Shown: piece after piece, positions 49,845-60,670 of the stretch
How positions within the stretch are numbered: the stretch's first letter is position 1
Layout: each line of letters begins with the position of its first letter
Origin: Sphaerolaimus hirsutus
Taxonomy: Eukaryota; Nematoda; Chromadorea; Monhysterida; Sphaerolaimidae
Assembly (NCBI GenBank): GCA_964036195.1
Contig: OZ038451.1
Location: 20,596,318 to 20,660,317, forward strand
Length of the DNA stretch: 64,000 nucleotides
Direction: 5' to 3'
Notes under the pieces: model-generated
What the model was told of the DNA's origin: nothing
The model's input: only the letters and a program-made list of their open reading frames with translations
Databases searched by the model: none
Made by a program: the position numbers and the translations under genes

Positions 49845-52800
49845 TCACTGTGAACAAAGCCACACTTTTTCAGTAGATCCCAAAATATAGCGCTTTTCAC
49901 AGTGTAAACCAACATCTTCTAAAGCCTCTATAATCACTGTTATATCAATCCAATAATAACCATATGGAGTATTGATAGTACCATCTTGGAGAGCCTCAAG
50001 TGTATTGAGCAAGCCATTAGCTGCCTGGGTGTTTAGATTTTTGTTATTTTCTCTGAAACGATAAAAGTTACTTTTGATCAGATCATGCTCTTTCTGCAAA
50101 AAATCAACAGAAACTAGTCTCACAACAGGGGAATTGCCAATTCCCCATAACCACGTATTGCACATTTGTAATAAACCTCCCATAAGTGCAGCGCTTTGCG
50201 CAAATTAATTAATTGCACATGGGGACATAAGATTCCCCATGGCGGGCGAAGATTCACCCCCAAAATGGCGGGGAAGATTCACCTAAGTACCAACTAATCC
50301 CCTTGATTTTGCCGCTGCATACTTCGCATTATGGGGAATTTACTGGTGCAATGTGCGATTTTTGCCACTTGACACTCGCCATATATGCGCAATCTTATTT
50401 TGGCAATGTGCAACTGTCAGGGCATATGTGCAATATTAGCTTTGTGCAACACAGCGAAAAAAAAGTGCATCTTACTCCCATGTGCAATACGCCGTATGGG
50501 CAATACGTAGGCTCTCTCACAAGAAACTCCTGCACATTTCCTTACTTAGGGTACATATTTAAGCTGATAAGCAAAATATGTCTGCATGCTGACCATGAAA
50601 CACATCCTTTGTTTTCGCAATTTCTGTGTTTCTACATCCTCTGAACAATCACTTGAACTTTTCAATGCATGTGATGTGACATATAGACTTGCAGAGAAAG
50701 GTCAGAATGTGTTTGTGGCAAGTTAACAGCTGGGAAGCCCTACCATAATACAATGCTTTTCAAAATAGTCCAAAATTGCATAGTTTTTTTAAATTGAAAA
50801 TTTTAAAAAGTTTTTTTGTCTTGAAAACATGTAAAAATTGTTAAAATTGGAAAATTACCCAAGAGATTTTGCATTTTTTTACTAAATCCATTTTTGATGT
50901 CAGGAATAAGCATTGATTGATTTATTGATCTTACAGTTTTGTATGAAGTGCAAACAACTATCACAGTCTATACCTGTCCAAAACTGGTGTATTTTGTCCA
51001 CATGTATAAATTAGCATAGTAGAAAATGTCATAGGCATCCCAAATGCCATATTCAAGTGATTGCGACAACAGGTAGAATACCTGAAAGAATATATTGTGA
51101 TTATTTTGGCTGTTAAAATTCCAGTTTGCGTATTTATATAATTGAGAAATATGAATAATAAAATTGTAAATTATGGAAAAATTTACGATGTTAATATTAT
51201 AGCATTAATTTTTTGCTTGAACTATGGAATTTTTATTCTGATGTACAGGTCTATGTAACTAATGTAAGCAGATTCATACAATATAGGTATAGATCGTGAA
51301 TTTTACTAATTTTTTTGAAGAAAAAGCTCCTACCTTCGAATAACACCCCCCCTTGAAATATGATACCACTCCACCGACCCTGTTGAATACGCCACTGGAA
51401 TAGTGAACATTAATCCCATCATAATAGTTTGAAACGTGGTCAATGCCTTTTCCATCCAGCGTTGGATTATCAAAGTACCGCAAAGGTTGTCCTGTCTTAC
51501 TAACTCTCTCATTTATTGTCCAGGTTATTGGAACTTTGGCATAGTGCTTTACTGCCACAGCTAAATGTTTGGTGGTAGGCTTTTTCACATGGTCACATTT
51601 ACATGCAAAATGGGACGTTTTTGACTGTTTTTTTTTGGATTGGGCGTGGAGATTTCATGCCATCAGAATTCCACGTCATTATAGGTGTAAAGAGGGGAAG
51701 CAGAAAATAGAAAATGTAATTTAATGAGTGAACTCACAGGTAACATCAGAGAATGCCTCGTTCAGTCCCCCACTCTGACCAGAGTAATATAAACCAGCAG
51801 AAAAATATGTTACGGCATGCCCTAGTTCGTGTGCCACAATGTCCAGAGTTGTGGAGGGAAACTCCTCAGAATCACCTGTTTATGTTGTTGATTTTCTCAA
51901 CATTTTTTTGTGTTTGCAAGTAGGATTATGGTGAATTCTTGAATATTCCCCATCACAGCAAATTAGGTGCTCGTGAAGTGCACCGAAGTGGTCTGAGGCG
52001 CCCCCCGCGATCACACTTCAGATATTGATCACCAATAGCATGCACGTCACAGACACTTCACAAGGTTAATACTGAATTGTTGTGCATGGCTGTTTATGGC
52101 AAACCACATGGGAAAAATAGCGACAAGCGTTAAAAACACCATTACGCTTTTCTGAACCCCAGCGCCAAGCGCCAATGGCGCCACAGCAGAATGGCGCCAA
52201 GTGCCAAAAGCGCCATGACGCTTTTTCCTTTGGCGCCAGCGCCATGGCGCTTTTCCGTCACTAGTTTGTAGTGTCTTTCGGCATCAATGGTTTTAATTAC
52301 AAAAATAGATTTATGCTGGCCAATTTTCCATCTGAAACAGTGGACAAGCCAGGTAAGGCACCTACTTTCAGAGTCGGTGCTGGACACCGTATCCCCAGTT
52401 GTAAGGGCAGAGAAAATTTTAAACTTTAAGGGAATATAGTCTAAACCCCCTACAACTATACATTTCAGAAGGGGCCCCGGCGACCCCCTGCGAGTGGACC
52501 GCTGCAAAATAAACTGGAATTTTTGTTGTAAAATTCGCTGTCCAAGCCAAGCACAGCACTGCACAGCGGAAATAAGAATTACCTTAGAAAAAGTCCCCTA
52601 GAGGACTATGTTACTTTTTTTAATTCACTTTTTACACTGGTATACATAGTCTATGTATACCAGTGTAAAAAGTGAATTAAAAAAAGTGTTTTAAAATCAA
52701 AATTTTCATAAGGTACTTGTGTATCTTTTTCACCCCTACACAAGTTCCAGATTAAATTTTGATGTTAAGTGAAATTTTTAATACACACTTTTCAAGCTGG

Positions 52801-60670: not shown

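Follow-up and report, generated by a model that had tools for sequence, protein, structure and literature searches.

The 64,000-nucleotide stretch of DNA analysed here (the window, C2:20596318-20660317 of a genome that comprises 762 contigs and 348,482,957 bases) carries on its minus strand, at 49845-60794, eight exons that join into one catalytic domain of a thermolysin-type (M4) zinc peptidase with 328 residues, and the genome holds at least four related intron-rich M4 genes. With a probability of roughly 0.7, this gene family descends from a pseudolysin/vibriolysin-type gene that was acquired from a gammaproteobacterium-like donor by an old transfer, and we predict its products to be secreted, self-activating proteases. 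That an animal family goes back to one elastase-type gene captured long ago from a gammaproteobacterium, and that this family gained introns, lengthened one loop, lost a calcium site, rewired the tail disulfide and came to occupy three chromosomes, is a fuller scenario that we hold with a confidence only a little above even.

All seven introns lying wholly inside the window are of the GT-AG type and keep the frame, with phases 0, 0, 2, 1, 1, 0 and 0. The initial annotation had proposed seven exons with matching phases; its motifs, range and phases were right, and the number of exons is eight because 60712-60794 had been missed. This first exon of the window part lies outside the range of that annotation and encodes the start of the mature enzyme, reading FEDIGTGPGGNENTGKYFYGSDKPAFK after a split codon. 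Exon 2 (60527-60631; VAKFDNYC...FTCPEQ) carries cysteines 35 and 59, the pair making the first disulfide in pseudolysin, and is followed by exons 3 (59159-59244) and 4 (58389-58495). Exon 5 (51738-51875) alone carries all three zinc ligands, with HELGH at 51817-51831 and the glutamate of GGLNEAFSD at 51745-51771, and exon 6 (51379-51560) contains the calcium-site region (V174 and K177) and the catalytic histidine motif (51379-51408); this check by coordinates agrees with the earlier claim that the catalytic motifs are intact. Exon 7 (50974-51081) precedes exon 8 (49845-50024), which encodes the last two helices, the 17-residue loop between them (49938-49988), the tail cysteines and the stop codon TGA (49845-49847), all on the minus strand as above. 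The acceptor of exon 8 has been revised: an acceptor at 50093, used in a 351-residue model, was dropped on finding that its 23 extra residues are absent from the aligned paralogs and relatives, and the acceptor at 50024, which shortens the model from 351 to 328 residues, is backed by three paralogs. When same-sized pieces of the same strand were joined at random 20,000 times, the joins contained a mean of 16.2 stops and a minimum of 2, against the single final stop of the real exons.

The gene continues beyond the window. A 4002-bp intron (60795-64796, minus strand; 60795-64000 within the window) leads to four propeptide exons assigned by homology. In window coordinates continued past its end, these lie at 64797-64911, 65096-65266, 65405-65421 and 65594-65690, and the third, of 17 bases, is the least certain. 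An exon near 68327, which stands apart from the joined gene model, reads MHRILFATILLLAMSQVGECAKKKLKK... and looks like a signal peptide by eye; a tandem copy of the gene (gene B, below) has a clear counterpart, MLPTSHCALLCALVLLALSQVGECRKKKLTK..., and similar rules applied to 20 window pieces of 6.3 kb gave one candidate of at least 60 residues. On these sequence features the exon is likely a signal-peptide exon. For the FTP propeptide domain (Pfam cut-off 21), the window gene, gene B and the paralog on contig C15 scored 16.5, 16.0 and 15.4, under the cut-off, and the paralog on contig C3 and the database protein P0130 scored 22.2 and 24.1, over it; PepSY had no Pfam match in the four models of this genome.

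The aforementioned gene B lies in tandem upstream of the window gene, with modelled exons at 70965-85827 in extended coordinates, and the further copies lie on C15 (L086) and C3 (L087). Four genes are a lower bound for the genome; a tblastn search with the four models (E 1e-3) detected no additional gene in the window below 49000, in the 60 kb past the retrieved B stretch or in the 30 kb flanking each end of the retrieved C15 and C3 stretches. Identity to the window gene is 49% for B, 44% for C15 and 38% for C3, and 33-40% among the other three. The zinc ligands and the catalytic histidine are kept in all four, B having LDESFSD and C3 LNEAFAD. From the middle of the propeptide onward the window gene has nine introns, of which B matches nine in position and phase and C15 matches eight (the phase-2 intron is missing) while having one of its own; C3 matches three exactly and two more within two alignment columns, in a model that is poor from the propeptide to the middle of the catalytic domain, where one intron lies at least 9 residues from any window-gene intron. 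The introns of the 5' propeptide disagree among models. A comparison of intron positions had been suggested in the initial annotation; carried out within the same genome, it yields three further genes with introns in common with the window gene, and the latter therefore belongs to an old, duplicated family and is not a lone newcomer. As placed in our models, the intron positions common to the paralogs speak against a young transfer.

Spliced alignment with proteins as queries recovered much of the same structure. The C15 paralog recovered all 11 window-gene introns (7 inside the window, the other 4 crossing its end or lying past it) and 9 of the 10 introns of gene B, the database protein P0123, which comes from another source, recovered 8/11 and 8/10, and the bacterial protein P0004 recovered 7/11 and 7/10, placing the last acceptor of the window gene elsewhere. 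Five shuffled C15 queries scored 70-88, against 842 for the real one.

These structures bear on the explanation that the gene comes from a chimeric assembly or from bacterial contamination, for which it could be said that the named matches among those listed are bacterial. We regard this explanation as practically negligible, because seven GT-AG introns are present in the window, the exon GC content (0.43) is close to that of the window (0.39), and paralogs with the same intron positions lie on contigs of 25.6-32.0 Mb. The introns refute bacterial contamination, as was argued from the window sequence at the outset, and since introns are common to genes on separate chromosomes, contamination is excluded and the ancestral gene must have borne introns before its duplication. 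The genome is likely an animal's, judging from its introns, from contigs as large as chromosomes and from a retrotransposon of the Pao type in intron 4. This last intron (51876-58388, minus strand; 6513 bp, phase 1) encloses BEL/Pao-type pieces on the minus strand at 55240-56400, namely Peptidase_A17 (E 6.3e-8; 55240-55524) and a weak RVT_1 match under the cut-off (E 6.2e-5; 55678-56400), which support the animal-type genome assumed earlier; to our knowledge, BEL/Pao elements are restricted to animals. Arrays of a 40-bp TTTCCGTTTTCCG repeat flank the remnant at 54976-55181 and 56754-56929.

The retrotransposon debris in intron 4 and the weak-looking donor of intron 6 (GTCGGT) could also be taken as marks of decay, i.e., of a once functional M4 gene that is now a pseudogene. 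We consider this improbable, because 328 codons run without a stop or frame break, the catalytic residues are kept, and the differences from the tandem copy B are in excess at third positions (35, 29 and 56% at codon positions 1, 2 and 3). Together with dN of 0.41 and dS of 2.18, the latter near saturation, this excess gives a pattern of protein-level selection.

The assignment to the M4 family is clear at the domain level. The 351-residue model scored 108.2 bits for Peptidase_M4_C (cut-off 24.4) and 74.6 bits for Peptidase_M4 (cut-off 22.4) in Pfam, the final model with the propeptide scored 107.9 and 73.7 bits, and the four longer models (window gene, B, C15 and C3) all pass both cut-offs. 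The M4 signature residues of the window gene are HExxH at 142, an NEAFSD-type glutamate motif at 162 and HYSSGVFN at 225. Its closest solved-structure sequences are 7ecc, vibriolysin MCP-02 and pseudolysin 1ezm (E 6e-66 to 1e-61), and the pseudolysin/vibriolysin match at E 1e-61 or better contrasts with about 3e-23 for thermolysin; the earlier view of an M4 peptidase nearest to pseudolysin and vibriolysin is thus borne out by the structure-sequence matches. The nearest NCBIfam model, that of Legionella-type ProA (NF045902), gave 190.8 bits against a cut-off of 900, so that the gene is not a member of that family.

Pseudolysin (LasB, 1ezm) is colinear with the window gene over chain residues 4-277, and its zinc-site and catalytic residues H140, E141, H144, E164 and H223 are all matched. 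The window gene differs from it in E172 to V, E175 to K, D183 to T, C270 to N and D221 to N and in having one further tail cysteine; it therefore lacks the two-glutamate calcium site and C270, with V174, K177 and N272 in their places. The two-glutamate calcium site and the C270-C297 disulfide are features of the pseudolysin/vibriolysin subgroup, and we file the predicted enzyme as a variant related to that subgroup and not as pseudolysin itself. Vibriolysin MCP-02 (3nqx) and PlM4P (7ecc) have the same zinc ligands and catalytic residues as the window gene in the alignment, from which the loop before their last helix falls out, and keep both calcium-site glutamates that the window gene has lost; their bacterial genes have no introns, unlike the window gene. 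Support for the fold comes from the long-loop relative P0123 and not from a spliced window protein: the predicted P0123 structure has the M4 fold, with catalytic blocks mostly above 90 pLDDT and vibriolysin MCP-02 (3nqx) as its best match (TM 0.94 by target length), and protealysin (2vqx) is a distant match to it (24% identity). According to the available text of PMC6778150, M4 peptidases are reported in fungi, bacteria and certain archaea, and the fungal enzymes described there belong to the protealysin-like subgroup, unlike the pseudolysin/vibriolysin kin of the window gene.

Relatives were collected in three protein searches, in which we examined the best 120 of 975, 120 of 202 and 120 of 455 matches, the third search having scored the 7995 candidates with most words in common. 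No eukaryotic name appears among the matches listed in these searches, many of which are nameless. The 17-residue loop that separates the last two helices occurs in 3 of 322 rows, i.e., the window gene, P0130 and P0123; elsewhere the loop has 5 residues (314 rows), 7 (three rows) or 10 (two rows), in a count that left out 36 of 358 rows in which the anchor motif was missing. This alignment-anchored count superseded one made with a regular expression, which was too crude. In the alignment, the paralogs B, C15 and C3 also have the long loop. Both pseudolysin calcium-site glutamates are absent in all six long-loop proteins, the replacements being V/K in the window gene, L/S in B, M/L in C15, M/K in C3, A/K in P0130 and K/Q in P0123; this loss is not unique to them, since it occurs also in 22 of 319 other rows. 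Seven bacterial rows (P0004, P0128, P0124, P0127, P0136, P0259 and P0265) match the window gene in the tail and calcium characters: they have lost E172 and C270, have a cysteine at position 297 and carry one more cysteine in the tail.

P0130 has no hydrophobic signal stretch at its start by eye, and its last 27 residues are of low confidence (pLDDT below 50) and were ruled out as folded protein; both ends fit a translation running between introns. We infer that P0130 and P0123 are eukaryotic proteins. Viral contigs scanned with P0130 and with an alignment of the three rows gave no relative, and a plasmid search with P0004 returned 85 records, each with less than 60% identity. Three other M4 proteins without the long loop (P0135, P0156 and P0206) are possibly eukaryotic and may represent other eukaryotic M4 lines.

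Phylogenetic trees were constructed repeatedly with changing sets of rows. The first quick tree (91 full-length rows, thinned at 75%) failed to join the window gene, P0130 and P0123; it placed the window gene with P0004, P0124, P0121 and P0137 (88) and P0130 with P0123 apart, all of these within one 9-row set (98). The rows of later trees came from 45 of the 357 database proteins and from 62 of 80 retrieved loci, the other 18 loci being without a frame that holds both motifs, and their 108 rows were thinned to 72 at 72% identity. Without the paralogs, the three long-loop rows were joined at 95 in a quick tree and at 93/51 in a careful tree, for which 7 rows were dropped. For the final tree, 8 of the 72 rows were dropped and the three paralogs added, giving 67 rows and 342 columns. 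All six proteins with the long loop are united there in a single clade (bootstrap 98, not settled; SH-aLRT 89), within which the four genes of this genome group together (97/80), joined by P0130 (91/68) and then by P0123, these two being its members from beyond this genome. The 12 extra loop residues stand outside the tree columns, in which just the 5 loop residues common to all were used, and several rows of the clade are long branches.

Thirty rows of the tree are named, 23 of them gammaproteobacterial, 2 betaproteobacterial, 4 actinobacterial and 1 myxococcal. The long-loop clade sits with the proteobacterial rows, 100/100 apart from the actinobacterial and myxococcal ones; when the tree is rooted on the latter, the clade is placed next to all remaining rows, which are grouped with each other at only 81/51. 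A group of the clade with eight bacterial rows, i.e., six of the seven tail-cysteine rows (P0128 had been thinned out) plus P0121 and P0137, which both keep C270, is compatible with the data yet without positive support (p 0.342).

Two origins had been offered in the initial annotation, transfer followed by intron gain and deep inheritance with losses, and the former fits better in view of the placement with gammaproteobacterial enzymes. M4 peptidases are described as an almost exclusively bacterial family in the available text of PMC7851659, and in the sponge Amphimedon intron-bearing, clustered copies of bacterial-type M35 peptidases have been read as an old transfer, as far as the available text of PMC4784904 goes. 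The sponge case is alike in that an animal carries clustered, intron-bearing copies of a metallopeptidase family of bacterial type, and differs in concerning another family, the terms "peptidase M4" and "thermolysin" being absent from the main text of PMC4784904. Because the closest relatives that bear a name are bacterial, the family is described as nearly confined to bacteria and M35 provides an animal precedent, an old transfer with later intron gain is our best reading. A literature search gave no animal M4 gene in the titles and abstract beginnings among the matches listed; under the terms sought, the available parts of PMC3750612 and PMC3650047 contain nothing on animal M4, and PMC5785536 and PMC2868825 were set aside as animal M4 reports, the term in their available text being M41.

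If the long-loop M4 genes had instead descended from an old eukaryotic stock that was lost in most lineages, with no transfer into animals, one could understand why the gene is old, as seen from the common introns of its four or more copies, from their divergence (33-49% identity) and from two relatives of other sources that branch before these copies, and why the tree gives no nesting of the long-loop clade in one bacterial group. We nevertheless think such descent unlikely, because the proteins belong with pseudolysin/vibriolysin enzymes of Gammaproteobacteria and a few of Betaproteobacteria, at the aforementioned 100/100 separation, the solved relatives whose names show a source are bacterial enzymes, the family is described as almost exclusively bacterial in the available text cited above, and seven bacterial rows carry the same tail cysteine pattern and have lost the first calcium glutamate. 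That P0004 and P0124 agree with the window gene in their tail cysteines and in the loss of E172 might alternatively mean that bacteria such as the owners of these two genes took the gene from a eukaryote. This direction is very improbable, because both rows keep E175 and the short loop, as is common among the rows, and because the subfamily is widespread in Gammaproteobacteria.

Under the preferred reading of an old transfer from bacteria, the window enzyme is predicted to be a secreted and active protease. Pseudolysin and other M4 proenzymes are secreted, cleave off their own propeptides and cut, in a zinc-dependent manner, before bulky hydrophobic residues. By analogy, the signal peptide would lead the protein into the secretory pathway, where an FTP-type propeptide would fold and at first inhibit the enzyme, which would free itself by self-cleavage of the propeptide; HELGH and the downstream glutamate would hold a zinc ion, the HELGH glutamate would activate the bound water, and this water would cut peptide bonds before bulky hydrophobic residues. 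Because three calcium-site side chains are replaced and the tail cysteines are rearranged, the stability of the enzyme is likely less calcium-dependent than that of the bacterial enzymes. The protease may serve in digestion, matrix turnover or defence. Moth inhibitors (IMPI) act on microbial M4-type enzymes according to the available text of PMC3203145, and animals would, if our reading is true, themselves wield an enzyme class elsewhere met as a bacterial weapon. An intron-rich, multi-gene animal M4 family would be a well-documented bacterial secreted protease made native, in which steps such as intron gain, duplication and calcium-site loss can be ordered, and the loop and tail characters would give a simple search key for how widely animals hold the family.

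In the rest of the window, Rfam (gathering threshold) and tRNA scans gave no match, and several repeats were observed. A large inverted duplication (9395-16469 against 31104-39570) consists of pieces that are 89-100% complementary; it has a gap of 200 N (16574-16773) immediately within its left arm and is either a real palindrome or a haplotype mis-join. Its spacer contains a Gypsy-like retrotransposon on the minus strand (27008-30611) with two long open frames, one of 535 aa with a weak CCHC knuckle and the other of 677 aa with a reverse transcriptase. Pieces of a PIF/Harbinger-like DNA transposon lie on the plus strand at 5717-8131 (DDE_Tnp_4, E 5e-8, in 7736-8128), and a minisatellite rich in GGCGCC, its units being about 58-75 bp long, is repeated through the window at 12441-12595, 13413-13522, 15662-15804, 34094-34203, 35021-35160, 61090-61223 and 61915-62069.
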